A DNA stretch of 64,000 bases from Bordetella sp. 02P26C-1 (lineage in GTDB: Bacteria; Pseudomonadota; Gammaproteobacteria; Burkholderiales; Burkholderiaceae_B). The stretch covers positions 124,001-188,000 of the forward strand of contig NZ_WSJB01000019.1 of assembly GCF_009763255.1 (NCBI RefSeq), written 5' to 3'. The translations under genes were made by a program, and so were the position numbers. Below, piece by piece: positions 47,117 through 64,000 of the stretch. Position 1 is the stretch's first letter; every line of letters begins with the position of its first letter. The notes beneath the pieces are model-generated. The model saw only the letters and a program-made list of their open reading frames with translations, was not told where the DNA came from and did not search any database.

Positions 47117-48301
47117 GTGAGCACTATTTCACAAGCACGCAGCACGCGTACGTCGGGCGTTTCGGCGGTGGTCGGCATCGGTCATACCGACTGGGTGGAA
47201 GACTACCGTCGCGTCCGCAACGGCGAGAAGCCCTATGACTCCTATGGCTACGCCGCGCAGGCGTTTGCTCGCGCTTTGGCCGACGCCGGGATTGACCGCT
47301 CGGAGGTTGATGGCCTGATCGTTGGCCCGACGACTGCCTACGAACGCATGGGCGAGGTGTTAAACATCGACCCCCGCTGGGGTGGCCAGGCCGATGCGGT
47401 TCAGGCTGTGATGCAGGCCGTGCTCGCGATCCATTCCGGCATGGCGGAAGTCGTGGCGCTTGTATATGGCAACGACCAGCGTTCGGCGGCCGTGCAGTAC
47501 GGCGGTCCCGAGGCAATGGGCGGTGGGGCCTTTCTTTCTTATGTCTACCATAGCCCTTGGGGTTTGACATCCCAGGGGGCGCTGTATGCGCTGATGTTCC
47601 AACGCTACAAAGAACTTTGGGGCGTGACGGACAAGGATCTTGGCCAAGTGGCGGTAGCACAGCGCCAGTGGGCATCCATGAATCCCCACGCGATCATGCG
47701 CAACAAGTTTCTGTCAATCGAAGAGTACTTGGCTGCTAACTACATTGCCGAGCCGCTTCGTCTGAATGATTACTGCTTGATCAACGACGGCGGCGTGGCC
47801 TTGATCATCATGGAAGCCGAGCGCGCTCGCAAGACTTGCCGTCAGCCGGTGATGATCCAAGGTCTGGGCCGCGCGGATCTCAACCATCATGCAACCAGTT
47901 TGGGTCCCCGTCTCATCGATTTCTATCGTCCTGCGCAGCAAAAAGCGGCAGAACAGGTTTATGCAGCTGCCGGCGTGGGGCCCGAAGATATTGATGCACT
48001 GCTGGTGTATGACAGCTTCAGCCCGCATATCTTCTTCGCGCTGGAGGGCTTCGGGTTTTGCGGCCAAGGAGAGGGTGCGCGTTTTATTGCTCAGAACGGT
48101 ATAGGGGTGAACGGAAAGCTACCGGTCAATACCCACGGCGGACATTTGTCGGAATCCTATATGCAGGGGTGGAACCATCAATTAGAGGCCGTGCGTCAGC
48201 TGCGAGGAGGCGAGGGGGATCGGCAAGTGCCTGATTGCCGGTATGTGCAGTACGTGTCGGACGTTGCGGGCAAGGCGATGTCCATCATCTATGGACGCTA
48301 A
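47117..48301 (+). CDS. thiolase-fold protein, lipid-transfer/aldolase-like
   Basis: 394-residue member of the thiolase superfamily subgroup related to SCP2 and Ltp2-type enzymes. The segment where thiolases carry the nucleophilic Cys reads GGQADAVQAVMQAVLAIHSG (Ala/Asp instead of Cys), and the late region LLVYDSFSPHIFFALEGFGFC and VNTHGGHLSESYMQGWNHQLEAVRQLRGG matches the lipid-transfer subgroup. It therefore likely performs aldol-type or otherwise altered chemistry, not classic thiolysis. The GTG at 47117 has AGGA upstream. It is followed after 21 bases by an OB-fold DUF35 gene, the usual partner of such proteins. Confidence 0.87.
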   Translation: MSTISQARSTRTSGVSAVVGIGHTDWVEDYRRVRNGEKPYDSYGYAAQAFARALADAGIDRSEVDGLIVGPTTAYERMGEVLNIDPRWGGQADAVQAVMQAVLAIHSGMAEVVALVYGNDQRSAAVQYGGPEAMGGGAFLSYVYHSPWGLTSQGALYALMFQRYKELWGVTDKDLGQVAVAQRQWASMNPHAIMRNKFLSIEEYLAANYIAEPLRLNDYCLINDGGVALIIMEAERARKTCRQPVMIQGLGRADLNHHATSLGPRLIDFYRPAQQKAAEQVYAAAGVGPEDIDALLVYDSFSPHIFFALEGFGFCGQGEGARFIAQNGIGVNGKLPVNTHGGHLSESYMQGWNHQLEAVRQLRGGEGDRQVPDCRYVQYVSDVAGKAMSIIYGR

Positions 48302-48322
48302 TCAAATTAGGAAAGAGATGCC

Positions 48323-48715
48323 ATGAGCAAGACACCTCGACAATACTCGCCGTACGACGCCCCGATGTGGGAGAGCATTTCCCAGGGTCAACTGAAACTA
48401 CAGCGGTGCCGCGAAACAGGCGTTTTTTATTACCCGCCTGGCCCGATGTGCCCCGAATCGCTGAGCTTTGACGTGGAATGGGCACCCGTCTCGGGCCACG
48501 GGAAAATACTTTCCTGGACGGTGTTTCATCGTCAATACCTTCCTGCCTATCCGGCGCCCCATCTAGTGGTTGCCGTGCAACTGGAAGAAGGGCCCATCAT
48601 GATCGGCTATATGGATCACGTTCATCTGCCGCGGCTGGCCCTTGATCTACCCGTCAGCGTGGAATACGTCGACCATACGGACGGCTACCGGATCACTCGT
48701 TTTCACCCGAACTGA
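48323..48715 (+). CDS. OB-fold nucleic-acid-like domain protein (DUF35), thiolase partner
   Basis: 130-residue protein with the DUF35 layout: a short N-terminal region with the rubredoxin-like zinc-finger segment, then an OB fold (SGHGKILSWTVFHRQYLPAYPAPHLVVAVQLEEGP). Such proteins pair with thiolase-fold enzymes. Of the normal four Cys, only C29 and C43 remain; the positions of the other two read Thr32 and Ser46. Zinc binding is therefore doubtful. It is 21 bases after the thiolase-fold gene. Confidence 0.85.
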   Translation: MSKTPRQYSPYDAPMWESISQGQLKLQRCRETGVFYYPPGPMCPESLSFDVEWAPVSGHGKILSWTVFHRQYLPAYPAPHLVVAVQLEEGPIMIGYMDHVHLPRLALDLPVSVEYVDHTDGYRITRFHPN

Positions 48716-48848
48716 GCACGCTCATAACGCTTCGTCCGTATCACTAATGATGCGTGCCCGGTGAGTGACGGGCAAAACCGATCACAAAAACGATTCAAAG
48801 CCCTGACGCATTCAGGGTGGAATGACAAAAAATATGAGCGGAGGAGAC

Positions 48849-49796
48849 ATGAAATTCGTACTGAAGGCGGCGCTGGCCATATCCATCGCGCTTGGCAGCA
48901 TCACGACCCCAGCATCGAGCAACGAAGTGGACAGCCGCGGCGGAGCGCGAACGGTCGTCGTGCCATTGGCGCCGGGTGGGGCGGGTGACAAACTCGGGCG
49001 CATGCTGGCTCAGCGCCTCACTGAAGAAACCGGTAGGACATATATCGTCGACAACAAACCTGGAGCCGGCGGAAACATTGCAGCCGCGCATGTGGCCAAG
49101 GCAAAGAACGACGGCTCGACCCTGTTATTGACAACGGGCGGGATGCTTACCTTGAACCCTCACATCTATAAAAATATCGCGTTCGATCCGATCAAGGACT
49201 TCACGCATATCGCGAAATGGGTGGACTCTCCCAACATACTCTTCGTCAGGACGGAGACACCAGTCAATAACTTCGATCAGTTCATGACATGGGCCAAGAG
49301 CGGCCCCCAGCCGCTCAAGTATGGCTCTGCGGGTATCGGATCCTCTCAACATTTAGCCGCCGAGCTGTTTCAGACCCGGACCGGGGTGGAGTTTCTGCAT
49401 GTCCCGTACCGAGGCGGCACGCCTGCCGTGCAGGACCTCGTCTCGGGACTGCTCGATTTCTCGTTTTCCACCACGGCAGGGCTCGCGATGATGAACGCCG
49501 GGCGGCTCAAACCCCTGGTAGTGACCTCGACGAAAAGATTGTCCATGCTGCCTGACATTCCCACAATCGCTGAATCCGGCTATCCCGGATTCGACGCGAG
49601 TGCGTGGTATGGCGTGGTCGGACCGGCTGGCATGAGTGACGCGGAAGTGGCGATTGTGCAACGCGCCGTTGAAAAGCTCGCGCGAGATGAGAAACTCGCT
49701 GCCGCGCTGGAAGCCGAGGCCCTGATTGTCGACTACAGAGATCCCGCGGCGTTCAAGCAATACGTGCAACAGGAACTGGATTCCTGGGGGGCGTGA
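48849..49796 (+). CDS. Bug/TctC-family periplasmic binding protein
   Basis: 315-residue orphan receptor. The signal peptide MKFVLKAALAISIALGSITTPASS leads to a mature start without the usual YPxKP motif (here VDSRGGARTVVVPLAPGGAGDKLGRML). DNKPGAGGNIAAAHVAKAKNDGSTLLL and GSAGIGSSQHLAAELFQ are family segments. The ATG at 48849 is preferred because GGAGGAGA lies directly upstream. It would supply the substrate of the neighbouring catabolic genes. Confidence 0.92.
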   Translation: MKFVLKAALAISIALGSITTPASSNEVDSRGGARTVVVPLAPGGAGDKLGRMLAQRLTEETGRTYIVDNKPGAGGNIAAAHVAKAKNDGSTLLLTTGGMLTLNPHIYKNIAFDPIKDFTHIAKWVDSPNILFVRTETPVNNFDQFMTWAKSGPQPLKYGSAGIGSSQHLAAELFQTRTGVEFLHVPYRGGTPAVQDLVSGLLDFSFSTTAGLAMMNAGRLKPLVVTSTKRLSMLPDIPTIAESGYPGFDASAWYGVVGPAGMSDAEVAIVQRAVEKLARDEKLAAALEAEALIVDYRDPAAFKQYVQQELDSWGA

Positions 49797-49866
49797 TCCG
49801 GACTGCTCAGATTTCCAGCCAATAGATCGCGGACTCACTCGACCTCATAACAACAAGGAGTGTGCA

Positions 49867-50664
49867 ATGAAGATAATGCAGTACCACGACACCGAAACCC
49901 GGGTGGAAATTCCCAGCATGCGCGGGATGTGTACCGACATCGAGTGGCAAACTCGCGTCGATCTGGCAGCGTGCTATCGGTTGATAGATTTGTTTGGTAT
50001 GTCGGATCTGATTAGCACCCATATCAGCGCCAGGATCCCCGGCACGGAAGAGTTTCTGATCAACCCCTATGGCTACTTGTTCGAGGAGATCACCGCGTCC
50101 AGCCTGGTGAAGGTGTCGATCGAAGGCGAAATCATTTCGCGAGCTGACGAGTCGCTGCATATCAATCCTGCCGGATACATGGTGCATAGCGCCGTGCATC
50201 AGGGGCGCGAAGACGCGATGTGTGTGCTGCATACCCACACCCGTGCCGGCGCTGCCGTCGCCGCGATGGAATGCGGCTTGTTGCCCTTGAATCAGACTGG
50301 GATGCGATTCTGGAATGCGACGGGGTACCACGACTATGAAGGCCCTGTTGTGGACCTTGATGAGCGTGCCCGTCTGCAAAAAAGTCTGGGCCAACATAAC
50401 GCGTTGATTCTGCGCAATCACGGTCTGTTGACTTGCGGTCCGACGATTGCCGAGGCTTTCTATCTGATGCGCGCGTTGGAGCGGTCCTGCCAGATCCAGA
50501 TCGACGCAATGGCCAGTCAGACCCCGCTGCGTCTTCCCTCTGACGAGGTTCTGGCCAAGACGGCGCACCTTTTCGATCGATCGGTGCGACGTGCTTATGG
50601 CATGAAGGAATGGCCCGCTTTGCTGCGCAAACTCGACAAGATCGACAGCTCATTCCGGCACTGA
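49867..50664 (+). CDS. class II aldolase/adducin-family protein
   Basis: 265-residue protein of the fuculose-aldolase/ribulose-5-phosphate-epimerase-like family. Metal-binding His residues are seen in VLHTHTRAGAAVAAM (HTH) and NHGLLTCG; DLISTHISARIPGTEEFLINPYGYLFEEITASSLVKVS holds the N-terminal binding loop. Such enzymes cleave or epimerise short hydroxy acids using zinc. Start ATG at 49867 with AAGGAG upstream. It is followed by a D-2-hydroxyacid dehydrogenase. Confidence 0.87.
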   Translation: MKIMQYHDTETRVEIPSMRGMCTDIEWQTRVDLAACYRLIDLFGMSDLISTHISARIPGTEEFLINPYGYLFEEITASSLVKVSIEGEIISRADESLHINPAGYMVHSAVHQGREDAMCVLHTHTRAGAAVAAMECGLLPLNQTGMRFWNATGYHDYEGPVVDLDERARLQKSLGQHNALILRNHGLLTCGPTIAEAFYLMRALERSCQIQIDAMASQTPLRLPSDEVLAKTAHLFDRSVRRAYGMKEWPALLRKLDKIDSSFRH

Positions 50665-50720
50665 GTGGCATCGCACCCGCACTTTAATGCTTTCCTTCTT
50701 TCCCTTCGAGTTGTGTAGCC

Positions 50721-51752
50721 ATGGATTCGCAGCACAGCAAACACGCCATAAAAATACTGGCTTCACCACTTGCCAAGAATGCCATGCAGGCCAGGCTCGA
50801 TGCCTTGGCTAAGCGGTTGGATACGACAATAGAAGTCATATCGACGGATCGTGTGGGTGGGGTCCAGACAGTCGCTGATATCGACATCGCATTGTTCAGC
50901 CGAGACATTTACGAGGGATCGAATCAGAAAGGCCTTGCGTCTTCGGCCAGACAGTTCTTTTCGCTGCTCGACGAGGCATCAGGCCTGAAATGGCTGCATA
51001 TATTTTCATCGGGAGCGGACCGGCCAGTCTATTCCGAATTGGCATCCCGAGGCGTTTTGACCACGACCAGCGCTGGGGCCAATAGTAAGTCTGTCGCGCT
51101 GATGGCTTTGACCGGCATTCTGGCGCTCTACAAAAAGTTCCCGCTCTACATCCGCGCCAAGGCCCAAAAGGAGTGGGTCAGGCCCGCCATGGAAGACTTC
51201 CCCCGGGCGCTCGAGGGGCAGCGCATCGTCATCATAGGAACAGGACATGTAGGCTCGGAGCTTGCCAGAATGGCCAGCCTGTTCGGTATGCATACCATCG
51301 GCCTGAACCGTACCGGCAATCTGGTCGAAAGGTTTGACGAAGTTCATGCGATCGACCAGCTCGAACGCATTGCCGCGCGGGTCGAGTGGCTGGTGATCTG
51401 CTGTCCGTTAACTCCCCGTACCCGCGGCTTGGTCGATGCAAAGATTATCGCGGCGCTTGGATCGCATGCGCACATTGTGAATGTGGGACGTGGGGGCGTC
51501 CTCGATGAATCGGCGCTGCTGCATGCGTTGTCCGAAAAACATATCGCTGGTGCATACCTGGATGTGTTTCATAGCGAGCCTCTGCCTTCGGAGTCGCCTT
51601 TGTGGGCATTGGACAACCTGCTCATCACGCCGCACGCCGCCGCGCATAGCGGCGACGTCATGGAGCGCGTGATCGACATTTTTATTCAGAATGTTGAGCA
51701 CTGGTTGATGAGAAAACCCTTGCTGAACATGTTCACACCCCCAGCCGTATAA
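50721..51752 (+). CDS. D-2-hydroxyacid dehydrogenase (NAD(P)-binding)
   Basis: 343-residue oxidoreductase with the D-isomer-specific 2-hydroxyacid dehydrogenase fold. The nucleotide motif is GTGHVG at residues 173-178; catalytic Arg is in VNVGRGGVLDE, Glu in AYLDVFHSEPLP and His in TPHAAAHSGD. The first third (residues 1-100) differs from typical members. Likely substrate is a glyoxylate/hydroxypyruvate-like or larger 2-hydroxy acid, which fits a gene next to a class II aldolase and a GMC oxidoreductase. Stop followed by the GMC gene after ten bases. Confidence 0.88.
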   Translation: MDSQHSKHAIKILASPLAKNAMQARLDALAKRLDTTIEVISTDRVGGVQTVADIDIALFSRDIYEGSNQKGLASSARQFFSLLDEASGLKWLHIFSSGADRPVYSELASRGVLTTTSAGANSKSVALMALTGILALYKKFPLYIRAKAQKEWVRPAMEDFPRALEGQRIVIIGTGHVGSELARMASLFGMHTIGLNRTGNLVERFDEVHAIDQLERIAARVEWLVICCPLTPRTRGLVDAKIIAALGSHAHIVNVGRGGVLDESALLHALSEKHIAGAYLDVFHSEPLPSESPLWALDNLLITPHAAAHSGDVMERVIDIFIQNVEHWLMRKPLLNMFTPPAV

Positions 51753-51762
51753 GGTGCAGCGG

Positions 51763-53382
51763 ATGACCAGAATAGTGGAGGCAGATATCGTCGTGGTTGG
51801 CGCGGGAAGCGCCGGCTGCATCGTTGCTGCACGCGTGTCAGAAGACCCAAACCTTCAGGTCGTGCTGATCGAGAGCGGCGGAGAGGACTCGCATCCGTGG
51901 TTTCATATCCCCGCGGGATATGCCAAGATCATGGAGGCTGGCAAGCACTATTGGAACTACCAGACCGAAGCGGAGCCACACCTGGATAACCGGACCATCG
52001 CCTGGCCCCGTGGAAAAGTGATCGGCGGCTCGGGATCGGTCAATGGGTTGGTCTATTTGCGAGGCTCTCCGTTTGACTATGATCGGTGGGAACAAGCCGG
52101 AGCAAAAGGCTGGTCGTGGGATGCCTGCGTCCCATACTTCCGTAAAGTCGAAAAATGGCAGGGCGACCCTGGGGCAACGCGCGGTCAAACCGGGAAGGTC
52201 GCAATCACCACGCCCAAGGTGTTATCCGAAGGCGCGCAAAGATTCATAAACGCCTGTAACGCAGTGGGCATCGACAATCATATCGATGTGAATGACGGGC
52301 AGTTGAGCGGCGTTTCGCCGGTTCAGTCAAATATCGAGAACGGACGGCGAGCGTCGTCATCCCGTGCCTATCTGAGAGAAGCCAGAAAGCGCGGCAACCT
52401 GACAGTGCTGACGCGCATGACGGCACAACGCGTGATGTTCGATGAGCGCAGAGCAACCGGCATTATTGCCCGCCACGACGGTACGAATGACAGTGTTGTG
52501 ATCCGGGCTAGAAAAGAAGTCGTACTTGCCGCAGGCGCGATCGGAACGCCGCAGTTGCTCATGCTGTCGGGGATTGGAGATGGCACTGCGCTTGCACGCC
52601 TGGGCATTGAGGTGCTGGTGAATCAGCCCGAGGTCGGCCGTAATCTCCAAGACCACTTGCTGGTACGCATGCGATTCCGATCTCGGGAGATCGGCACCCT
52701 GAACGAAAAGATGCGATCGCGGCTGTCGTTGGCCAAGACGGTGGGGGCGTATCTCGTCAAGCGTGACGGACCTCTTGCTATTGGTCCCACCGAGGCTGTG
52801 CTGTTTGCGCGTACGAATCCTGAGGTCGAGGAGGCGAACGTTCAGATCCAGTACATCAATTTCTGTACTGCAACCACGCCGTCCTATCGTTTGCCCCACG
52901 CTGCGGGGTTCATGCTCAACATGAGCCAATGCCGGCCGGCGAGCAAAGGGTCTTTGACTCTCCGGAGCAAGGATTTCAATGAGCCGCCAGTTATTCGGGC
53001 GGCGTATCTATCAGATCCGTTGGATGTGAAAGAAAACATCGAAGGCGTGCGGCTCGCACTAAAAATCGCAAAAGCCCACGCGCTTGCCGAGATTATCACC
53101 GAGAACCAATCCGGATTATCGGAGCATTCGTCCGATGAGGAGATTCTTCGGTATATCAGACAGGTGGCGGGGACGGTTTACCACCCATGCGGAACCTGTC
53201 GAATGGGAGATGATGAGGGCGCCGTGCTCAATAGCGACCTCACCGTCAAGGGCGTGAAATCCTTGCGCGTCGCGGATGCATCCGCGATTCCGGCGATTCC
53301 ATCTTCGAACATTCAGGCTTCGGTCCTGATGATCGCCGAACGCGCCAGCGATTTCATCAAAAACTCAAAGAGCAATTATTAA
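51763..53382 (+). CDS. GMC-family FAD oxidoreductase
   Basis: 539-residue choline/glucose-dehydrogenase-type flavoprotein that oxidises an alcohol. The N-terminal FAD motif is VVVGAGSAGCIVAARVSEDPN, the second GMC motif GRNLQDHLLVRM is present, and the active-site residues are His in TVYHPCGTCRMG and Asn in PSSNIQASVLMIAE. The ATG at 51763 follows a GGTG-rich stretch; an upstream GTG at 51754 is less likely. The base composition of 51-54 kb is somewhat less GC-rich than the surrounding genes. Confidence 0.9.
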   Translation: MTRIVEADIVVVGAGSAGCIVAARVSEDPNLQVVLIESGGEDSHPWFHIPAGYAKIMEAGKHYWNYQTEAEPHLDNRTIAWPRGKVIGGSGSVNGLVYLRGSPFDYDRWEQAGAKGWSWDACVPYFRKVEKWQGDPGATRGQTGKVAITTPKVLSEGAQRFINACNAVGIDNHIDVNDGQLSGVSPVQSNIENGRRASSSRAYLREARKRGNLTVLTRMTAQRVMFDERRATGIIARHDGTNDSVVIRARKEVVLAAGAIGTPQLLMLSGIGDGTALARLGIEVLVNQPEVGRNLQDHLLVRMRFRSREIGTLNEKMRSRLSLAKTVGAYLVKRDGPLAIGPTEAVLFARTNPEVEEANVQIQYINFCTATTPSYRLPHAAGFMLNMSQCRPASKGSLTLRSKDFNEPPVIRAAYLSDPLDVKENIEGVRLALKIAKAHALAEIITENQSGLSEHSSDEEILRYIRQVAGTVYHPCGTCRMGDDEGAVLNSDLTVKGVKSLRVADASAIPAIPSSNIQASVLMIAERASDFIKNSKSNY

Positions 53383-53395
53383 ACAGGAGACTGTC

Positions 53396-54370
53396 TTGCT
53401 GCGTCGTTCTATTTCGGGTTTATTGCTTTCTGCATTGATTGCCGTGGTCCCAGTGGGCAAGGCGTTGGCGGATAACTATCCGTCTAAGCCTGTACGGATC
53501 ATCGTTCCGTATGCACCGGGCGGGTCGTCTGACTCGCTGGCTCGCTTACTCGCGCGCTATCTTGGCGAAAAATTTAACCAAACCTTTGTCGTGGAGAATA
53601 AGTCGGGTGGCGGCACAGTGATCGCTGCGCGTGAGGTCATTTCCTCGGAGCCCAATGGCTACACGATTGCGCTTCTAGATACGTCCACGCCGGCGGTCGC
53701 GCCATTTCTCTACAAGAAGCAGCCATTTGATCCCGCCAATTTGCAGCCGATTACCCGACTGGCGAGTATCCCCCAAGGCTTACTCGTGCCAGCCTCATCC
53801 AAGCTCAACACGTTGGACGACTTCATCAGCTACGTAAAGAGCAACCCCGGTGCTTCCTACGCCAGCTTCGGCAACACCTCGCTGAGTTACTTCTTGTTCG
53901 AAGACTTCCTTAACAAAGCCGGGCTCAAGATGACCCAGGTGGGATATAAGGGTGCGGCGCCAGCGTTGCAAGATCTCATCGGCGACCACATCGGCATTGG
54001 TTTTCTGGACGTCTCTACCTCGACGCCTCATATTCAGGCAGGCAAGCTCAAGGCACTCGCCATTGTGACCGAGGATCGTTTGAACGCCGTTCCTTCCGTG
54101 CCCACGTTCAAGGAATCAGGTTTTCCGGATTATTACCGTACGCCTTGGTTCGGCGTCTTTACGCGCGCGGGGACACCAAAACAAGTCGTCGACAAACTCA
54201 ACGAAGCGGTCATGGAGTTCGGTAAGTCGGAGCTGTTTGCTAAGTGGCTGCGGGATAACAATCTCGTCCTGTCGTTGAGTGATAGCACCGCGGCATTCGA
54301 ATCCGGCATTCAAGCCGACACTCAGGTGTACTCCACTCTGATCAAGCAACTCGGCGTCTCCCTCGATTGA
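53396..54370 (+). CDS. Bug/TctC-family periplasmic binding protein
   Basis: 324-residue orphan receptor with signal peptide (about 25 residues, ending LADN). The TTG start at 53396 is preceded by an AGGAGA site; no better ATG is available. The mature start YPSKPVRIIVPYAPGGSSDSLARLLARYLGEK matches the family. ENKSGGGTVIAAREVISSEPNGYTIALL and SYASFGNTSLSYFLFEDFLNKAGLKMTQVGYKGAAPALQDLIG are its other segments. It follows the GMC gene by 13 bases, suggesting co-transcription. Confidence 0.92.
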   Translation: MLRRSISGLLLSALIAVVPVGKALADNYPSKPVRIIVPYAPGGSSDSLARLLARYLGEKFNQTFVVENKSGGGTVIAAREVISSEPNGYTIALLDTSTPAVAPFLYKKQPFDPANLQPITRLASIPQGLLVPASSKLNTLDDFISYVKSNPGASYASFGNTSLSYFLFEDFLNKAGLKMTQVGYKGAAPALQDLIGDHIGIGFLDVSTSTPHIQAGKLKALAIVTEDRLNAVPSVPTFKESGFPDYYRTPWFGVFTRAGTPKQVVDKLNEAVMEFGKSELFAKWLRDNNLVLSLSDSTAAFESGIQADTQVYSTLIKQLGVSLD

Positions 54371-55558: not shown

Positions 55559-55625
55559 TGCCGTCGGTACGGCAGTAGCTCAGGCGTCTTAACCGACATA
55601 TTCATACAAGCGCGAACTTTATTTC

Positions 55626-56870
55626 ATGCAGATATCCACACATGACTGTTTTGGGGCATTGGACGGAATCACCGTACTCGATTTGGGCGGACCGTTGGGC
55701 AACTATTGCGGCAAGCTCTTCGCCGACCTTGGGGCTGACGTCATTCTGATAGAGCCGCCGCAAGGCTCTTCCACGCGGCATGTTGGTCCCTATGTCCGAG
55801 GCGGCGAGTCACCCGAGCACAGTTTGCGTTATCAGTACGAGAACACCAACAAACGTAGTGTGGTACTCGATTTCGAAGACCCGGCGGATCGCGAGACGTT
55901 CTTGCGGCTTGCCGCCAAAGCATCCGTGGTGCTCGAAAGTGAGGCGCCTGGCACGATGCGGCGCTATGGCTTGGACTATGCCGCGCTCCGGGCCGTGAAT
56001 CCGGCGATCGTCATGACCAGCATCACGCCGTTTGGGCAGGAAGGCCCCTATGCGGAATGGCTGGCCACCGATCTGACAGTGATGGCGATGGGCGGCATGA
56101 TGTACCTCGCGGGTTATCCCGACACTGCACCCATGGTCGCCTGCGGGGAGCAGGCGGTCGGTGCAGCCAATCTGTTTGCAGCGGTAGCCACGCTCGCAGC
56201 CGTCTACGACGCAGAGGTGAGCGGGGCTGGCCAACATATCGATGTCGCCATGCAGGAGTGCGTGGTCATGGGGTTAGAAAACGCGGTGCAGTTCTATGAC
56301 CTTGAGGGCACGATACGCAAACGCAACGCCGGTACGCAACGACTGGCCGGCACGGGGGCATTTCTCTGCCAGGATGGATATGTGTATTTGATGGCCGGAG
56401 GCATTGGGAGCAACCGCTTCTGGAGCGTAACCACGGAATGGCTGATTTCCGAAGGCTTAAAGGAGGCCGAGCAATTCCGCGATTCGCGCTGGAGTGACCA
56501 GACCTTCTTGGCCACCGATGAAGCAAAGCGCATCTTCCGTGATGTGTTTGCTCCCTTTGCGTTACGGCACACCAAAGAACAGCTTCAAGCGAAAGGCCGC
56601 GAGCATCGTATTCCTATCGCGCCTATATGCGACGCCAGTGATATTGCCGCGGATCCGCAACGGGCGCATCGGGATTATTTCGTCAACATCAATGCCGCGG
56701 ATGGGACTGAGCTTCGTATGCCAGGTGCTCCCTATCAATTGAGCGCCACGCCCTGGCGTTTGCGAGTCGGAGCGCCCACGCTGGGGCAACACACCCAAGA
56801 GGTCCTGTCCAGTTTGAATCGCGATGCCCGCACTTGTGGCCTGTCCGCCGCCACCGAGGAACACCAATGA
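55626..56870 (+). CDS. class III (CaiB/BaiF) CoA-transferase, non-catalytic-type subunit
   Basis: 414-residue CoA-transferase-fold protein with N-terminal DLGGPLGNYCGKLFADLGADVILIEPP. In the position of the catalytic Asp (Asp169 in formyl-CoA transferase) the sequence reads CGEQAVGAANLF around residues 173-184, with Glu175/Gln176 and no Asp. It overlaps the next gene, which has that Asp, by four bases (ATGA). I infer that the two form a heteromeric CoA-transferase, with this chain as the non-catalytic partner, as described for BbsEF. Confidence 0.87.
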   Translation: MQISTHDCFGALDGITVLDLGGPLGNYCGKLFADLGADVILIEPPQGSSTRHVGPYVRGGESPEHSLRYQYENTNKRSVVLDFEDPADRETFLRLAAKASVVLESEAPGTMRRYGLDYAALRAVNPAIVMTSITPFGQEGPYAEWLATDLTVMAMGGMMYLAGYPDTAPMVACGEQAVGAANLFAAVATLAAVYDAEVSGAGQHIDVAMQECVVMGLENAVQFYDLEGTIRKRNAGTQRLAGTGAFLCQDGYVYLMAGGIGSNRFWSVTTEWLISEGLKEAEQFRDSRWSDQTFLATDEAKRIFRDVFAPFALRHTKEQLQAKGREHRIPIAPICDASDIAADPQRAHRDYFVNINAADGTELRMPGAPYQLSATPWRLRVGAPTLGQHTQEVLSSLNRDARTCGLSAATEEHQ

Positions 56871-58075
56871 AACGATTACTCAATGGCATTCGCGTGATTG
56901 ACTTCTCGTGGATCGGCGCGGGTTCCTACACGACCAAAATCCTGGCTGATCTTGGCGCGGATGTTATCAAGATTGAAAGTCATCAGCGCCTGGACACGCT
57001 GCGGGTCACCAAGCCATTTAAAGACAAGGTCCCCGGCGTCAATCGCAGCGGCTATTTCGCTGATCGCAACTCCAGTAAGCGCAGCGTCACCCTGAACGTC
57101 AAGGACGAACGCGGGCTGGCGATGGTTAAACGGCTGATCGCTGACGCGCATTTGGTCTGCAATAACTTCACGCCAGGCGTGATGGACAAGCTCGGTCTGG
57201 GCTATGAGGTGCTCAAAGAGATCAAACCGGATCTGGTCTTCGTCGCCATGTCCATGCAGGGTGCCAGTGGACCGGCGCGCGCGGATCTCGGGTATGGCTT
57301 GACCATTGCAGCGCTTACCGGGTTTATGCATCTGACCGGCTTGCCTGAGCGCGAACCGGCGGGCACTGGCACAAATTATCCCGACCATATACCCAATCCC
57401 GGCCATGCCGCGTTTGCCATTCTGGCCGCGTTGCGTCATCAGCGACGTACGGGCATAGGCCAACTGATAGACCTCGCCCAGATGGAGCCCACCCTGGCCA
57501 TGTTGGGGCCCACGATGATGAATTATTTCGTCAATGAGGTCGTGGAACAGCGCGCGGGAAACACACATCCTGAATACGCGCCCTATGGGGTGTATCGATG
57601 CTCGGGCGATGATCGCTGGATTGCGATTTCCGTTTGTTGTGACGAGCAATGGCAGGCGCTTTCCACCGAGTTAGGGTTGGAGCAAAAACCCCAGTGGGCT
57701 GGCGTGGAAGGGCGGTTGAAGGATCGGCAGCAAATTGACGAGGCCATTACCCGTCACACGGTTGAGCGTGATGCAATGGCTTTGGCTCAGGCACTTCAGC
57801 GTGCCGGCGTTACGGCGGGTCCCGTGCAAGATGCCCGCGACGTGCTCGAGCGTGATCCGCAACTGGCTGCCCGTGGCCACTGGGTCACATTGAATCATCC
57901 CGAGATGGGGCCCAGCACCTATAACAGCGCCCCTTACCGATACTCCGATGCCGAATCGGCGCCTACTGCTCCTGCACCGTTGCTCGGTCAGCACACGCGA
58001 GAAGTCTGTCGTGAACTGCTGGGGCTCCAAGAAGAAGACATCGACCGGCTCGAGGCGGACGGCGTCCTCTCGTGA
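56867..58075 (+). CDS. class III (CaiB/BaiF) CoA-transferase, catalytic-type subunit
   Basis: 402-residue protein beginning MKRLLNGIRVIDFSWIGAGSYTTKILADLGADVIKIES. The likely catalytic Asp173 lies in TNYPDHIPNPGHAAFAILAAL, the variant motif of succinyl-CoA:benzylsuccinate-type enzymes rather than of formyl-CoA transferase. It moves CoA between acids without ATP. Start at 56867 overlaps the preceding stop. Partner of the 55626 product. The ECH gene follows 30 bases later. Confidence 0.9.
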   Translation: MKRLLNGIRVIDFSWIGAGSYTTKILADLGADVIKIESHQRLDTLRVTKPFKDKVPGVNRSGYFADRNSSKRSVTLNVKDERGLAMVKRLIADAHLVCNNFTPGVMDKLGLGYEVLKEIKPDLVFVAMSMQGASGPARADLGYGLTIAALTGFMHLTGLPEREPAGTGTNYPDHIPNPGHAAFAILAALRHQRRTGIGQLIDLAQMEPTLAMLGPTMMNYFVNEVVEQRAGNTHPEYAPYGVYRCSGDDRWIAISVCCDEQWQALSTELGLEQKPQWAGVEGRLKDRQQIDEAITRHTVERDAMALAQALQRAGVTAGPVQDARDVLERDPQLAARGHWVTLNHPEMGPSTYNSAPYRYSDAESAPTAPAPLLGQHTREVCRELLGLQEEDIDRLEADGVLS

Positions 58076-58105
58076 GCCGGATTACCCAGGATTGAAGGAG
58101 TTCTT

Positions 58106-58882
58106 ATGACGCTATTGTTCGATGTTCAAGACCATATCGCCACCATTACGCTGAACCGGCCAGAGGCCATGAATAGCATCGATCCGGAAACACGGGCTGA
58201 ACTACATGACGCATGGAAACGGATCAAACACGATGACAGTATCCGCGTGGCGATTCTCACGGGTAACGGGGACAAGGCGTTTTGCACAGGGTCGGATCTG
58301 AAGAAAACCATGCCCCCCAAGGAGAGCTTCGCCGAACTCACCTTCGGCCGATCCGAATCCGATCACTTGCTCGCTGGTCTTGATACCGACAAACCCTTGA
58401 TCTGTGCGGTCAACGGTTATGCCATGGGGGGTGGCATGGAGCTGGCCCTCGCATGCGACATACGCATTGCTTCGGAAAATGCCGTCTTCGCGTTGTCGGA
58501 AGTGCGCATCGGCAGTATTCCCGGTGCAGGCGGCACGCAGCGTTTGCCCCGTGCGATTGGCTTATCCAATGCCATGCTGATGCTGCTGACAGGCGACCGT
58601 ATCGATGCGCAAGAAGCCGCCAGAATTGGTTTGGTCAGCCGTGTGGTGCGTCGCGATGATCTGCTTTCCAGCGCCACGGCGATCGCCAGTCGAATTGCAC
58701 GTAATGCGCCGTTATCGGTGCGCGCCGTGAAGCGGTTGGTTTACAACGGCCTCGACATGCCCTTGCCCGCTGCCTTAGAGGCTGAGCGTTACGCGTTCGG
58801 TCTGCTTCGAGATACCGAAGATCGCATCGAGGGCCGCCGCGCCTTTCAGGAAAAGCGCGAACCCAACTACCAAGGCCGCTGA
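58106..58882 (+). CDS. enoyl-CoA hydratase/isomerase (crotonase family)
   Basis: 258-residue crotonase. The oxyanion region and both catalytic acids are intact: Glu112 in GGGMELALACDIR and Glu132 in LSEVRIGSIPGAGG (equivalents of rat Glu144 and Glu164), so hydratase activity is plausible. GTQRLPRAIGLSNAMLMLLTGDRIDAQEAARIGLVSRVV is the rest of the signature. Placed between the CoA-transferase pair and an acyl-CoA dehydrogenase, it likely hydrates the enoyl-CoA made by the latter. Confidence 0.93.
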   Translation: MTLLFDVQDHIATITLNRPEAMNSIDPETRAELHDAWKRIKHDDSIRVAILTGNGDKAFCTGSDLKKTMPPKESFAELTFGRSESDHLLAGLDTDKPLICAVNGYAMGGGMELALACDIRIASENAVFALSEVRIGSIPGAGGTQRLPRAIGLSNAMLMLLTGDRIDAQEAARIGLVSRVVRRDDLLSSATAIASRIARNAPLSVRAVKRLVYNGLDMPLPAALEAERYAFGLLRDTEDRIEGRRAFQEKREPNYQGR

Positions 58883-58937
58883 ATTCCTCCAGGTCTTGCC
58901 CCACTCTATTTAGCCGCTATGCAGCACAGGAAGCATC

Positions 58938-60125
58938 ATGGATTTTGAGTTGCCCGAATCGTCGAAAATGGTCCGCGACACCGTCGCGCGTTTTGTCAAC
59001 GAAGAGCTGATTCCGCTCGAGCCGTTGACCATCCGCCGTGAGGCGGAGCGTGGGTATGAGGACACACCGATCATCCCGCCGGAGATCGAGGCAAAACTCC
59101 AGCAAAAAGCCCGGGACATTGGCCTGTGGGGAATTGACGTCCCGGAGGAATTCGGTGGCCAGGACCTGGGCATGTTCAATAAATGTTTGGTTATCGAACA
59201 GCTCAAGCACAGCGTCGTTCCATTCGTCTTGCCCCCAGAAAGTCCGAATCTGTTTTTACTCAAGGAACTGTGCAAGGGCGATCAGATTGATCGCTATCTA
59301 CTTCCATATTCGCGCGGTGAAAAGAAAAGCTGTTTAGCCCTGTCCGAGCCAGGCGCCGGTTCGGATGCAGCCGCGATCAAGACGCGAGCGGAACGCAAGA
59401 ACGGAAAATGGGTGCTCAATGGCACGAAGCTCTGGATCAGCAATGCACGCCGCTCCGATTTCATGATCGTCATGGCGGTCACCGATCCGAAAGCGGACAA
59501 GCGGTCCGCCTACACGACGTTCCTCGTTGACAAGGGTACGCCGGGGCTCACCATTCCGACTTCATTTCCTATGATTGGGGAATACCATCCGTACGAAGTC
59601 GTATTGGACAACGTAGAACTGGATGATAGCCAGGTACTTGGGGAAGTCGGCAGCGGCTTCGCTCCGATTTCCAAACGCCTGGGAGTTCGCCGGTTGGAGA
59701 TTGCGTCACGCTGCCTCGGCCTTGCCACGCGTTGTCTGAAGATGATGATCGAGCAAGCCAATACCCGTCAGACGTTCGGCGCACCCCTTGCCGATCGTCA
59801 AGCGGTCCAATGGTGGATCGCTGATAGCTACCAGGAAATCGAAATGCTGCGCTGGCTGGTCTATCAGATGGCATGGAAGATGGACACAGGACACGGCAAT
59901 GTGCGTCTGGACGGTTCGATGGTCAAGTTGCAAGGGACCGAAATGATCGCCCGCGTCGTCGATCGAGCGATCCAGTTGTTCGGCGGGATGGGTGTCTCGA
60001 AAGAATTGCCACTGGAATACATCTCGCGCATGTGTCGGGTCATGCGCATCGTGGAGGGGCCCAGCGAGGTGCATCGCTGGGTCATCGCGCGCGATCTCCT
60101 CAAGAACGGCTTGCCTTCAATCTGA
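58938..60125 (+). CDS. acyl-CoA dehydrogenase
   Basis: 395-residue FAD enzyme. LSEPGAGSDAAAIKTRAERKNGKWVLNGTKLWISNARRSDFMIVMA is the FAD/substrate block and the catalytic Glu373 lies in RIVEGPSEVHRWVIARDLL. The sequence resembles the ACAD10/11-like subgroup more than short- or medium-chain enzymes. It would form an enoyl-CoA for the upstream hydratase. It begins 55 bases after the ECH gene and ends 17 bases before the iron-ADH-fold gene. Confidence 0.92.
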   Translation: MDFELPESSKMVRDTVARFVNEELIPLEPLTIRREAERGYEDTPIIPPEIEAKLQQKARDIGLWGIDVPEEFGGQDLGMFNKCLVIEQLKHSVVPFVLPPESPNLFLLKELCKGDQIDRYLLPYSRGEKKSCLALSEPGAGSDAAAIKTRAERKNGKWVLNGTKLWISNARRSDFMIVMAVTDPKADKRSAYTTFLVDKGTPGLTIPTSFPMIGEYHPYEVVLDNVELDDSQVLGEVGSGFAPISKRLGVRRLEIASRCLGLATRCLKMMIEQANTRQTFGAPLADRQAVQWWIADSYQEIEMLRWLVYQMAWKMDTGHGNVRLDGSMVKLQGTEMIARVVDRAIQLFGGMGVSKELPLEYISRMCRVMRIVEGPSEVHRWVIARDLLKNGLPSI

Positions 60126-60142
60126 GTCTCGGATCCGCCTGC

Positions 60143-61342
60143 ATGCAGTTTTTTACTTCCATTAGCCACGCCGTCCGCATCCATGCCGGTACGGGCGCGT
60201 TGGGACAGTTGCCCCGTGAGATCAAGCGAGCGGGGGTGCAGCGCGCGTTTGTCATCTGCGGGCGCAGCGTGGCTACACGCACGCCCTTGACGCAACACGT
60301 CGCTGCTTTGCTGGAAGGGCGTTATGCAGGCGCGTTCACGAATCTCGGCAAGGATGCGCCCGTAGACGACGTGGTGGCTGCGGCCGAGCGGGCGCGTGAG
60401 GCTGACGCGGATGCCCTGATTGCCATTGGGGCGGGCAGTGTGATCAAGGCTACGCGCGTCGTGGCCATTCTGCTGGCGGAATCCGGCTTGCCCGAGACGC
60501 TGTGCACCCAATATCCGGAAGATGGGCCGCCGATTAGCCCGCGGTTATCCAGCCCTAAGGTGCCGATATTTAACGTTCTCACGGCAGCCACCTCCGCGCA
60601 GAATCGCGGCGGGGCAGCGCTAAAACACCCGCGCGGCGGACCGAGACTGGAGTTTTTCGATCCGAAAACCCGGCCCACCGCCATCTTTTGGGACGAGGAT
60701 GCCTTGCTGACCGCACCGCCGTCCTTGGCCATATCGACAGGCCTGGGTGTGTTCTGGCGGGCTCTGATGAACGTCGCCGCGATAGAAAGAGCGAATCCTT
60801 TGGTCCAGGCATCACGGCTCTATGCCTATACGCTCGCGCAAGCGGCGTTGCCCAACATGGGCGATGCGTCGAATGCGCGGGCGCGGGTGGATATGTGCGC
60901 TGCCGCGCTGCTACAGAACCGCGACGAGGATGATGGTGGGCGGCCCTTCGACGCACAATGGATCGCCCGTACGGTATATGCCCTGGGCTCTGCGCTTTTT
61001 AACCAAGCTGATCAGTTGGACCAGGGGCTGACTCATGCCATGCTGACGGGGCCCGCGATCCGGCACTTCGGCCACTTATGCCCGGATACCGTATCTGCAA
61101 TCGCCATGGCGCTGGGAATCGATGGGCGAAATGAGCGCGGTGGCACAGAGCCGGTAGCCGATGCCGTTGATGCGTGGTTCCGGGCGCAGGGGCTGGCCTT
61201 GCGTTTGCGCGATGCCGATCTGCAACCCGAGGCGCTTCGCGCTGTCCTTGATAACGCCACCAAAAACTTCAACGCCGATAGAAACCGAGAATTGACAGCC
61301 TACCGTGACCGCCTCGAAGCTATGCTGCGCGACATCTTCTAA
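60143..61342 (+). CDS. iron-containing alcohol dehydrogenase-fold protein with lost metal/cofactor residues
   Basis: 399-residue protein like maleylacetate reductases and other group III dehydrogenases in length and overall pattern (SISHAVRIHAGTGALGQLPREIKRAG..., ISTGLGVFWRALMN). Expected metal ligands are changed: where the family has GxDxxxH the sequence is GLGVFWR, so Asp is Gly202 and His is Arg206. One later His remains (H298), but the next catalytic His is Thr302. The GGGSxxDxAK nucleotide motif is GAGSVIKATR (Lys102 in place of Asp). Thus the protein may bind a different cofactor or be non-redox. It follows the acyl-CoA dehydrogenase by 17 bases. Confidence 0.82.
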   Translation: MQFFTSISHAVRIHAGTGALGQLPREIKRAGVQRAFVICGRSVATRTPLTQHVAALLEGRYAGAFTNLGKDAPVDDVVAAAERAREADADALIAIGAGSVIKATRVVAILLAESGLPETLCTQYPEDGPPISPRLSSPKVPIFNVLTAATSAQNRGGAALKHPRGGPRLEFFDPKTRPTAIFWDEDALLTAPPSLAISTGLGVFWRALMNVAAIERANPLVQASRLYAYTLAQAALPNMGDASNARARVDMCAAALLQNRDEDDGGRPFDAQWIARTVYALGSALFNQADQLDQGLTHAMLTGPAIRHFGHLCPDTVSAIAMALGIDGRNERGGTEPVADAVDAWFRAQGLALRLRDADLQPEALRAVLDNATKNFNADRNRELTAYRDRLEAMLRDIF

Positions 61343-61372
61343 ATCCTAAACCTCGATATCTCTCCATCTACT

Positions 61373-62773
61373 ATGACAGATCAAACCGTTACGCCCGCGG
61401 CGTTGCGCATTGCGGAGTTCTCCGCCCAGTTCCCTGTCGAACACCTGACCGAAGCCGCTATCCGTACGGTCGGACGCGCGATCGTGGATACGGTGGGCAT
61501 AGGCTTGGCAGCGGTGGACGAGCCTGCAAGTCTGACTGCGCTGCGGTATGTCAGGTCCGCGAACCCGATGACCAACTCGCCGCAAGCCGAGGGGCAAGGC
61601 CGCCTCTGGACGCATGACGAGTCAGCTTCGTTGACCGATGCCGCGTTCTACAACGGGCTGATCGGGCATGTACTGGATTTCGACGATGTCAGCTCTCCAT
61701 TGCGCGGACATCCTAGTGTGGTGATGCTTCCGGCGCTCTTGGCGCTGGGCGCTTCGCGCCGCAGCAGCGGCATCCGGTTGGCCTCGGCCTATGCCGTCGG
61801 TCTGGAAGTGATGGTCAAGATCGCCCGTGCCATGGTGTCTGATCACTACGCACGTGGGTGGCATGCCAGTACGACGATCGGTGTCGTGGGCGCGGCTGCG
61901 GCTTGCAGCCATTTAATCGGGCTATCGGTCGAGCAAACAGCGAACGCCATTGGCCTTGCGGTGGCGCAAGCCTCGGGGACCCAGGCGAGTTTTGGCACGA
62001 TGGCCAAATCTTTTCAGACTGGACACTGCAATGCTTCCGCGTTGCGCGCGGCTTTGCTCGCAGAAGCCGGCATGGACGCCGCCTCGGATGCGTTGGACGG
62101 TCGCCAAGGCTTTATCAAGCTGTATGGCAATGGCGAAAGTCTTGATGAGCAAATGGAAAACCTGGGCTGCGCACCGCTCGAACTGGTCAGTAGCGGTCTG
62201 GAGATCAAGAAGTATCCGATGTGCTATGCGGCCCATCGATCGCTGGACGCCATCCTCGATCTGCGGCGGACGCTTGGATTCAGTGCCGAGGAAATCGCCA
62301 AGATTGAGGTGCGCTCCAACTACCGAGGAATGGTGCCCCTGATCCATCCAGGAGCGGAAACGGGGTTGCAGGCCAAGTTCAGCATGCATTACGCCATGGC
62401 CGCCGCGGCCGTGGATGGGTACGTGCGACTGGCCAGTTTTACCGACGAGGCTGTTCAACGGCCCGCCATTCGCCGACTGATGGCCGCGGTATCGACCGAA
62501 GAAGCGCAGGGGGCGAGCACTCCACGATGGAATGTCGTGAGCGTCACGCTGCGTAATGGACAGCGGCACGAGAAAGAGGTGCGCGTTTTGAGGGGATCCC
62601 ACGCCGATCCGTTATCCGACGCGGAGCTGCAGGAAAAGTGGACTGACTGTCTGAACTTTGGTGGCTATTCGGATCCAGACCAGCGATTCTTCAAGGCGGC
62701 CCTTTCGTTAGAAAGGCATGACATTGCATCCCTCACGGCAGCGATGCCCGCGCCTCGGGATAACACACGGTAA
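61373..62773 (+). CDS. MmgE/PrpD-family protein
   Basis: 466-residue protein of the 2-methylcitrate dehydratase/cis-aconitate decarboxylase family. AFYNGLIGHVLDFDDVSSPLRGHPSVVMLPALLAL is the N-terminal helical-domain signature with the conserved DFDD, and KKYPMCYAAHRSLDAILDLR the conserved Lys/His region. Members dehydrate or decarboxylate short tricarboxylic acids; here the substrate is unknown. It begins 30 bases after the iron-ADH-fold gene. Confidence 0.9.
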   Translation: MTDQTVTPAALRIAEFSAQFPVEHLTEAAIRTVGRAIVDTVGIGLAAVDEPASLTALRYVRSANPMTNSPQAEGQGRLWTHDESASLTDAAFYNGLIGHVLDFDDVSSPLRGHPSVVMLPALLALGASRRSSGIRLASAYAVGLEVMVKIARAMVSDHYARGWHASTTIGVVGAAAACSHLIGLSVEQTANAIGLAVAQASGTQASFGTMAKSFQTGHCNASALRAALLAEAGMDAASDALDGRQGFIKLYGNGESLDEQMENLGCAPLELVSSGLEIKKYPMCYAAHRSLDAILDLRRTLGFSAEEIAKIEVRSNYRGMVPLIHPGAETGLQAKFSMHYAMAAAAVDGYVRLASFTDEAVQRPAIRRLMAAVSTEEAQGASTPRWNVVSVTLRNGQRHEKEVRVLRGSHADPLSDAELQEKWTDCLNFGGYSDPDQRFFKAALSLERHDIASLTAAMPAPRDNTR

Positions 62774-62848
62774 TTCACTGACTAACCGGCCCTCCGTTGC
62801 ACTTATTTCTTCACCGTTTCTTAACAAAACAACCGACGAGACAGAAAA

Positions 62849-63820
62849 ATGAAGTTGAAGTCTTTGTGTATCACCGCCTTTGCTGCCGCCTTGACGGCAC
62901 TCACGCCTGCTTCCCAAGCTGCAGTCACACTGAACGGTCCGGTTAAGCTGGTTGTCACCTTCGGGGCGGGGTCGGGCGGCGACGTGCTCGCGCGTTCTGT
63001 TGCCCAAGGGCTCAGCGAGCGAATCAAGGTGCCCGTGGTAGTCGAAAATCTCCCGGGCGCGGGCGGCAACATCGGCGCTGCCTATGTGGCCCGCTCCAAA
63101 CCCGACGGCCAGACGCTCTTGCTCGTCACGCCGGGCCCGCTGGTCACCAACCGCTACCTGTACAAGACGCTGAACTACAACCCGGAAAAAGACCTGGCGC
63201 CGGTGGCCTTCATCGGCACCTATCCCAACATTCTGACGGCCTCGCCTCAATCGAACATCAAGACGCTTGATCAGTTGCTCGCCGCGGCGAAAGAGACGAA
63301 GGGCGGGCTCTCCTACGCCAGCTCGGGGGTCGGTACGACTCAACACCTCGCCGGTGAATTGCTCGCCAAAGAAACCGGCGCCAATCTGGTGCACGTGCCC
63401 TATAAGGCGACCAGCGCCTATGTCACGGATCTGGCGGGTGGACAACTGCCGTTGGCGTTTGTCGCACAGGCGGGAGTCGGGCTGATCAACGAGGGCAAGA
63501 TCATCCCGATCGCGGTGACTAGTAAACGTCGTTCGGAAACACTGCCCCAGATTCCTACGTTCGAGGAATTGGGATTGAAAGGCTACTCGGCAGATTCCTG
63601 GTTCGCTCTTGCTGCTGCCGCCGCGACGCCTCCCGAAGTGATTGACTATCTTAATCATGAAATCAATGAGGTCATCAAGACGCCCGCATTTCAGGAAAAG
63701 GCCAAGTTGCAGCTAATCGATGTCACGCCGATGTCGCCGTCTGAATTCAAGACATTCATCGATGAAGAGCGGGGAAAATGGACGCCCGTCATCAAGAACC
63801 TTGGGATTTCCTTTGAGTAA
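62849..63820 (+). CDS. Bug/TctC-family periplasmic binding protein
   Basis: 323-residue orphan receptor, signal peptide MKLKSLCITAFAAALTALTPASQA. Mature segment VTLNGPVKLVVTFGAGSGGDVLARSVAQGLSERI and ENLPGAGGNIGAAYVARSKPDGQTLLL, SYASSGVGTTQHLAGELLAKETGANLVHVPYKATSAYVTDLAGG. It is the fifth Bug of the window and the last before the amidohydrolase gene. Confidence 0.93.
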   Translation: MKLKSLCITAFAAALTALTPASQAAVTLNGPVKLVVTFGAGSGGDVLARSVAQGLSERIKVPVVVENLPGAGGNIGAAYVARSKPDGQTLLLVTPGPLVTNRYLYKTLNYNPEKDLAPVAFIGTYPNILTASPQSNIKTLDQLLAAAKETKGGLSYASSGVGTTQHLAGELLAKETGANLVHVPYKATSAYVTDLAGGQLPLAFVAQAGVGLINEGKIIPIAVTSKRRSETLPQIPTFEELGLKGYSADSWFALAAAAATPPEVIDYLNHEINEVIKTPAFQEKAKLQLIDVTPMSPSEFKTFIDEERGKWTPVIKNLGISFE

Positions 63821-63841
63821 GCATCCCTGTTGAGCTTATTT

Positions 63842-64000
63842 ATGCATCTTCCTTATGCGCTGAGCGCTCTCCCTGTGGGGGCGTGCGACTGTCACGCCCA
63901 CATCTTTGGCCCATTCGAACAATATCCGTTGGCGACCACTCGCACCTATACGCCGCAGGAGTCCACGGTGCACGATTTCTATGCGCTGTTGACGCGGCTG
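63842..64000 (+). CDS. amidohydrolase (PDC-hydrolase-like), 5' part, cut by window end
   Basis: The ATG at 63842 opens a frame to the window end (53 codons) encoding MHLPYALSALPVGACDCHAHIFGPFEQYPL. DCHAHIFGP is the metal-binding start typical of amidohydrolase-2 family members such as 2-pyrone-4,6-dicarboxylate hydrolase. The rest is outside the window. It follows the Bug gene by 21 bases. Confidence 0.8.
   Translation, partial: MHLPYALSALPVGACDCHAHIFGPFEQYPLATTRTYTPQESTVHDFYALLTRL

Follow-up and report, generated by a model that had tools for sequence, protein, structure and literature searches.

A candidate CoA-dependent catabolic gene module with a BbsEF-type CoA-transferase and a predicted Ltp2-type aldolase in Bordetella sp. 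02P26C-1

The locus and its genes

A 64,000-nucleotide stretch of DNA from Bordetella sp. 02P26C-1 (the window), which lies on contig C10 in a genome of 4.1 Mb, carries a run of 16 co-directional genes (g1-g16) that extends from position 47117 to past 64000 and is preceded by a divergent gene for an IclR-family regulator (Table 1). Within this run lie genes for a two-chain class III coenzyme A (CoA) transferase of the type found in benzylsuccinate degradation (BbsEF), a thiolase-fold protein predicted to be an Ltp2-type aldolase with its OB-fold partner, an enoyl-CoA hydratase, an acyl-CoA dehydrogenase (ACAD), a protein with the fold of iron-dependent alcohol dehydrogenases (Fe-ADH), an MmgE/PrpD family protein, and a Bug receptor. 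These genes are read here as the core of a catabolic module for a dicarboxylic acid, at a probability of about 0.6, in which CoA transfer, dehydrogenation, and hydration would lead to retro-aldol cleavage.

Gene families were assigned from open reading frames (ORFs) and from Pfam and NCBIfam profile matches, relatives were surveyed in 151 genomes of the same family with detailed mapping of the locus in 11 of them, and the 80 best named g1 loci (L046-L125) served as a wider set. The original prediction for this window had described a co-directional run of listed gene families, which the ORFs and profiles bear out, including four Bug receptors; the families named were correct, although the Fe-ADH-fold gene g13 and the divergent iclR gene had been omitted and the thiolase-fold protein had been equated with BbsB.

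Table 1. Positions of the genes and operator sites at the locus, with the profile or structural match that supports each assignment.
Feature	Position	Strand	Evidence or remark
IclR-family regulator	46212..47021	-	PF01614 1.9e-23, PF09339; ATG at 47021; divergent from g1
Left operator half, GTGGACT type	47029..47040	-	Score 17.7; 7 bp from iclR ATG
Right operator half, AGTCCACAGTGA	47097..47108	+	8 bp before g1 GTG at 47117
g1 thiolase-fold protein, predicted Ltp2-type retro-aldolase	47117..48301	+	GTG start at 47117
g2 DUF35/OB-fold partner	48323..48715	+	PF01796, PF12172
g3 Bug receptor, outside core count	48822..49796	+	PF03401; between OB gene and transferase unit
g4 class II aldolase/adducin family	49867..50664	+	PRK07044, 334 bits, above cut-off
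g5 D-2-hydroxyacid dehydrogenase	50721..51752	+	PF02826
g6 GMC oxidoreductase	51754..53382	+	PF00732, PF05199
g7 Bug receptor, outside core count	53396..54370	+	PF03401
g8 Bug receptor, conserved core	54584..55558	+	PF03401
g9 BbsE-type CoA-transferase chain, catalytic Asp lost	55626..56870	+	9fn0_A 279 bits
g10 BbsF-type CoA-transferase chain, catalytic Asp kept	56867..58075	+	9fn0_B 307 bits; 4-bp overlap with g9
g11 crotonase-type enoyl-CoA hydratase	58106..58882	+	PF00378 2e-74
g12 ACAD, VEGPSE motif	58938..60125	+	PF00441/02770/02771
g13 Fe-ADH-fold protein	60143..61342	+	PF00465 1.7e-24 for 60137-61342
g14 MmgE/PrpD family protein	61373..62773	+	PF03972/PF19305
g15 Bug receptor, outside core count	62849..63820	+	PF03401
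g16 amidohydrolase, truncated at window end	63830..64000 (start ~63830)	+	PF04909 in L009:1830-2720, whole gene read there

The CoA-transferase

The two transferase chains each find their best match in the corresponding chain of the solved benzylsuccinate CoA-transferase, g9 in chain A (38% identity, next match 155 bits) and g10 in chain B (42% identity, next match 194 bits). In a tree of 60 rows, g9 falls in an 18-row clade with 9fn0 chain A and g10 in a 19-row clade with chain B, both with support of 100/100 and both separate from 21 other class III CoA-transferase paralogues of the same genome. These paralogues are 21 of 23 other family matches in the genome, two partial matches being omitted; module rows longer than 480 aa (from G015 and L051, where the ORFs are fused or mis-called) were dropped, and nine distant loci yielded 6 F-type and 5 E-type rows after filtering by position and length. 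Altogether, the 4.1 Mb genome holds 25 class III CoA-transferase matches, two of them partial.

The column of the catalytic aspartate contains Asp in g10 and Val in g9, and the same division holds among the tree rows, with Asp in 19/19 F-type rows, in none of the 18 E-type rows, and in all 21 other paralogues. The original prediction of a two-chain transferase of the BbsEF type is thus upheld by the clade of each chain and by an aspartate that is kept in one chain and lost in the other. Because of the aspartate pattern in the E and F rows, the split into catalytic and non-catalytic chains is taken to be older than the separation from Bbs. In one same-genus relative (G015, L022:788-3265), both chains are encoded by one unbroken ORF of 825 residues, its first half 73% identical to g9 and its second half 81% identical to g10; this natural fusion of a BbsE-type and a BbsF-type chain favours the two chains acting together.

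The thiolase-fold/OB pair

The best structural match of g1 in the PDB is the steroid aldolase TcLtp2 at 188 bits, compared with 76.5 bits for BbsB, and among NCBIfam models g1 scores 264 bits with the lipid-transfer protein model PRK07855 (cut-off 469) and 84.5 bits with the BbsB model. In TcLtp2, Tyr294 of the YDHF motif is the base and Tyr344 the acid (PMC12329534). Tyr302 (in YDSF) and Tyr352 of g1, numbered from a longer ORF start at 47105, align with these two residues. In Sal-type aldolases, the second catalytic residue is a Cys. Across the non-PDB rows of the g1 family, YD[SN]F is present in 28/28 (two rows being one sequence) and the second tyrosine in 27/28, the Variovorax row having Phe.

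Where the Cys-bearing loop of acetoacetyl-CoA thiolase would align, g1 has a deletion, and it lacks the HDxF and GHP motifs that BbsB shares with this thiolase, having YDSF and SESY in place of HDAF and GHP; the BbsB row of this alignment spans the His motifs only, and the Cys segment was judged against acetoacetyl-CoA thiolase. On these active-site grounds, the earlier assignment of g1 and g2 to a BbsAB-type thiolase was rejected, and g1 is predicted to be aldolase-like, nearest to Ltp2 and not BbsB-like. The OB gene g2 lies directly 3′ of g1, and an OB match accompanies g1 in 79/80 named loci. In public records, g1/g2-like genes are annotated as acetyl-CoA acetyltransferase or thiolase.

The hydratase, ACAD, g13, and g14

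VEGPSE, the glutamate motif of the ACAD, is kept in 10/10 rows aligned with g12, and in g11 the two crotonase glutamates were recognized by eye from their motifs. No equivalog model was matched above its cut-off by g12 (22 families compared) or by g11 (among the 25 of 73 families listed); the top score of g11 was with the EchA19 model, below the cut-off of that model. The first metal-binding helix of iron alcohol dehydrogenases carries an Asp and a His, and g13 has lost both in 8/8 aligned rows (the window and seven relatives); these sequences carry a strict motif of their own, NRDE.DGGRP. Matches of g13 in the PDB are weak, and the protein looks like an unusual, degenerate member of its family. 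The best PDB match of g14 is IDS-epimerase at 219 bits, followed by Bacillus IRG1 at 181 bits, and no NCBIfam model matched at E≤1e-20; since IDS-epimerase is nearest, g14 may act on a free polycarboxylate.

Conservation of the core in relatives

Matches to g1 (E≤1e-60) occur in 16/151 family genomes and matches to g9 in 13/151, with g13 matched (E≤1e-40) in 10/151. Linkage is close, with 14 of 15 g9 matches lying no more than 10 kb from a g1 match (the exception is G098). A gene-order comparison across the family, called for by the original prediction, found the aldolase, OB, E/F, hydratase, ACAD, Fe-ADH, and MmgE/PrpD genes together in six of the 11 mapped relatives (G015, G133, G087, G089, G013, and G021), with the class II aldolase g4 and the GMC oxidoreductase g6 at none of the 11 loci. 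A g8-like Bug gene (66-84% identical, also found in L049-L053) and an IclR gene accompany the core in five of these six, and neither was seen in G087, whose region starts at the E gene. In a seventh relative, G100, the module is split, the ACAD/Fe-ADH/MmgE half lying ~20 kb from the aldolase, and G063 has no g13 match and no g12 homologue within the mapped region. In the same-genus G141 (L150), the hydratase and ACAD are 74-76% identical to those of the window, while the aldolase gene has diverged strongly (40%), and the cleavage enzyme may have been replaced.

Named strains that carry all or most of the core include Bordetella genomosp. 7 and 13, B. petrii, Achromobacter sp. RTa, A. veterisilvae, A. 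agilis, and Pollutimonas subterranea; some of these loci are truncated where a contig stops, and no MmgE gene was seen in the three Achromobacter loci. A PrpF-family gene is part of the module in five relatives, as called by hidden Markov model in G015 and G087 and by motif or BLAST in G013, G021, and G141, and stands beside MmgE/PrpD at L022:8035-9177 (G015) and L025:6102-7268. The PrpF of G015 is nearest to the 4-oxalomesaconate tautomerase model, below its cut-off. The run in the window has no PrpF gene, the single one of the genome being located on another contig.

The g3-g7 block (48822-54370), which encodes a Bug receptor, the class II aldolase, the 2-hydroxyacid dehydrogenase, the GMC oxidoreductase, and a second Bug receptor, is probably an acquisition at least partly separate from the core, since g4 and g6 are missing at the loci of the relatives. 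Relatives of g4 are present in 88/151 family genomes, the best being 60% identical and located elsewhere, and g6 has no match above 42% beyond itself in the family genomes (E≤1e-120). For the same reason of absence, g4 and g6 are unlikely core steps, and g4 was rejected as the core cleavage enzyme. The 16-gene run is not a single ancestral unit. A g5-family D-2-hydroxyacid dehydrogenase adjoins MmgE in G087, G013, and G021 (29-32% identity, the family of the G087 protein being confirmed by profile) and is found close to the Bug gene at three Achromobacter loci (46-49%), which suggests that enzymes of this type may be part of the wider gene set. In the 80 wider loci, GMC-like genes were found in four and g16-like amidohydrolases in six.

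Upstream of the run, a tRNA-Arg (CCT) gene neighbourhood at 40717-41206 includes a short ORF that matches IS66 transposase in part and whose tail, judged by eye, resembles an integrase, and is a remnant of mobile DNA. A genomic island at this tRNA was considered and rejected, as its 3′ region is without a repeat of at least 13 nt from the window start to the contig end.

The IclR regulator and its paired operator

Two inverted sites at 47029 and 47097, 68 bp apart, occupy the divergent promoter region between iclR and g1. The motif was defined from eight intergenic regions, window included, and AGTCCAC is invariant in 8/8 of the aligned regions. Of 40 Markov resamples of the window (threshold 11), none contained such a pair, although single strong sites do occur by chance in shuffled windows. 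Outside the training set, the pair recurs in one of four further core loci (G089, spacing 78); in G021, two sites separated by 78 bp stand in reversed order, G013 has one site, and G087 has no pair. No pair was found in G063, G100, or G141. G133, B. genomosp. 13, and B. petrii also have single sites close to where the Bug-E-F unit begins; in the window, the sites at this place are no more than weak (6.3 and 5.6). The iclR gene stands divergent beside the aldolase gene in 7/80 named loci.

The module is probably regulated by the IclR protein. The question of co-regulation raised by the original prediction is answered in part: the paired operator stands between iclR and the aldolase gene at the eight defining loci and 5′ of the aldolase gene at one of four others, and single sites are found by the start of the CoA-transferase unit in three relatives.

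Proposed pathway and alternatives

From family membership, active-site residues, conservation, linkage, and the operator, all of which can be read in the sequence, we infer the reactions, their order, and the substrate. The substrate would most simply be a 2-substituted succinate or another branched diacid. The g9/g10 transferase would move CoA from succinyl-CoA to the diacid, the ACAD g12 would form the α,β-enoyl-CoA, the crotonase g11 would hydrate it to a 3-hydroxyacyl-CoA, and g1 with its OB partner g2 would carry out retro-aldol cleavage to an aldehyde or ketone and an acyl-CoA. If, by analogy with the Bbs steps (PMC10818641), CoA is attached adjacent to the carbon that bears the substituent, the acyl-CoA product of a 2-substituted succinate would be succinyl-CoA, the donor of the first step, so that neither a 3-hydroxyacyl-CoA dehydrogenase nor a thiolase would be needed. 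The MmgE/PrpD protein g14, joined in some relatives by a PrpF-type isomerase, probably prepares the free acid by dehydration, epimerization, or isomerization. The Fe-ADH-fold protein g13 may act on the carbonyl product, the Bug protein g8 would be the uptake receptor, and the IclR protein would be the regulator. The CoA-dependent route ending in retro-aldol cleavage suggested by the original prediction is plausible, with cleavage best assigned to g1 and with g4 and the GMC oxidoreductase unlikely to belong to its core.

The narrower proposal, an aldolytic β-oxidation of 2-substituted succinates in which succinyl-CoA activates the substrate and is released again by the Ltp2-type aldolase, making dehydrogenase and thiolase dispensable, is put forward tentatively, with the odds leaning somewhat against it. 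A literature search found no combination of a BbsEF-type CoA-transferase with an Ltp2-type aldolase, which is weak evidence of absence with subscription papers mostly outside its reach.

Several observations weigh against a retro-aldol module of this kind. In g1 itself, the His of the TcLtp2 YDHF motif is replaced by Ser, the grouping with Ltp2 has long branches and moderate support (90/85), and no NCBIfam model is matched above its cut-off, which is a curated score and not a biochemical feature. Its partner g2 has only two Cys, compared with four zinc ligands described for TcChsH2 (PMC12329534), and with two Cys its zinc ribbon is probably metal-free. The module of G141 has a diverged g1-like gene (40-44%), and the standard arrangement of the operator pair is absent from G087, G013, G021, G063, G100, and G141. 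Of the 80 best g1 loci, no more than 42 were scored as having E- and/or F-type chains, and in 28 of these the chains form a strictly adjacent pair; the total becomes 43 with the locus of Bordetella genomosp. 7 (L046), whose fused chain escaped scoring because the two models give it similar scores. With about half of the loci carrying E/F chains, the aldolase is not tied to one activating enzyme. Finally, Bordetella genomosp. 7 has a 3-hydroxyacyl-CoA dehydrogenase gene immediately 3′ of the OB gene (L022:11890-12837), which counts against aldolytic cleavage because a thiolytic or oxidative route would use such an enzyme.

The best-surviving alternative, though an unlikely one, is that unrelated operons lie side by side, with g3-g7, the E/F-hydratase-ACAD-MmgE unit, and the aldolase pair each serving its own substrate. 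The incomplete coupling of E/F chains to g1 is what this would lead one to expect, as are the ~20 kb separation in G100 and the absence of g4 and g6 from the loci of relatives, and the explanation is probably true in part, namely for g3-g7. For the other two units, it is opposed by the linkage of aldolase and E-type genes in 14/15 family cases and by the operator motif at both units in three relatives.

Less probable still is a true Bbs-like thiolytic β-oxidation of a substituted succinate, in which g1/g2 would be the thiolase and a dehydrogenase would be supplied from elsewhere in the genome. The BbsEF-type transferase, ACAD, and hydratase are all present, as such a route would have it, and the dehydrogenase gene beside the aldolase/OB pair of one relative is in keeping with it. 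Against it stand the deleted Cys-loop segment of g1, its missing HDxF and GHP motifs, and its far lower score with BbsB than with TcLtp2. The genome also has no BbsB-model match at E≤1e-100, and no short-chain dehydrogenase/reductase (SDR) family protein of the BbsCD type was found among the 16 genes by Pfam and NCBIfam. When 300 genomes of the order were searched with the BbsB model to obtain bbs operons as controls, seven genomes of one genus were returned, none above cut-off; the regions of two of these, compared with the window proteins, contained no E/F-type pair and were set aside.

That the genes form an Ltp2/Sal-like module for the side chains of steroids or bile acids is very improbable, and this reading was rejected: g1/g2 do resemble Ltp2/ChsH2-DUF35 and the hydratase does score highest with EchA19, but the one 3-ketosteroid dehydrogenase model searched (NF009478) is unmatched above cut-off in the genome (eight weak matches, control genomes also matching weakly, so that only the cut-off is informative), the hydratase is a separate crotonase and not a MaoC-DUF35 protein, activation is by CoA-transferase and not by a ligase, and the Bug receptors and MmgE/PrpD suggest small polycarboxylates.

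Wider occurrence of the aldolase/OB pair

Relatives of g1/g2 are widespread, being encoded by 427 of 433 pattern-matched stretches in a genome collection. Near the pair, at L043, L044, L045, and L046-L125, are genes for lactonases, amidohydrolases, dienelactone hydrolases, and class I CoA-transferases. Recurrent clusters among the 80 loci, each named from one member, comprise SMP-30 lactonases (8), Amidohydro_2 proteins (10), dienelactone hydrolases (7), and class I CoA-transferase subunits (8), and GntR and other regulators also recur. Judged from these neighbourhoods, the aldolase/OB pair is probably a general cassette used in several CoA pathways and mis-annotated as thiolase.

If these proteins are aldolases, β-oxidation routes predicted from such "thiolases" would be wrong at the cleavage step. 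An aldolytic route for 2-substituted succinates, if true, would be the first non-steroid role for Ltp2-type aldolases within the searches made, and would account for the large family of thiolase/OB-fold pairs that Proteobacteria carry. The module offers a concrete gene set, in some cases with a common operator and in named strains, in which to seek both the substrate and a non-steroid use of these aldolases.

Comparison with known systems

Like the Bbs system of anaerobic toluene degradation (steps as in PMC10818641), the module has a class III CoA-transferase of two chains, one of which lacks the Asp, together with an ACAD and an enoyl-CoA hydratase, and succinyl-CoA is the likely donor. It differs in having no BbsCD in the run, no benzylsuccinate synthase (Bss), and an aldolase-type active site in the thiolase-fold protein, and goes beyond Bbs in its MmgE/PrpD, Fe-ADH-fold, Bug, and IclR proteins. 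The absence of benzylsuccinate synthase, noted in the original prediction, holds for the genome, in which no glycyl-radical enzyme was found (PF02901 in 0/1, the control being positive in 3/14 known genomes including E. coli). The module is not a Bbs pathway, because the thiolase active site, BbsCD, and benzylsuccinate synthase were each sought and not found; the proposal that the run encodes the same protein types as Bbs is borne out only for the first step, the CoA-transferase, and fails for the last step, where the pair is not BbsAB-like; BbsCD, too, is missing from the run.

Among the accessory enzymes, g14 belongs with the MmgE/PrpD-fold IDS-epimerase and cis-aconitate decarboxylase, nearest to the former and then to Bacillus IRG1. 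By Pfam and weak PDB matches, g13 shares its fold with maleylacetate reductase and the group III iron alcohol dehydrogenases, and is unlike them in lacking the first-helix Asp and His ligands and in its motif NRDE.DGGRP.

The Ltp2-ChsH2(DUF35) and Sal-Shy steroid aldolases differ from the module, which has a separate crotonase, a single ACAD, activation by CoA-transferase, YDSF in place of YDHF, and no steroid context seen. They have in common with it a thiolase-fold protein beside a DUF35/OB protein and the logic of ACAD, hydratase, and aldolase, and TcLtp2 has the same paired tyrosines as g1.

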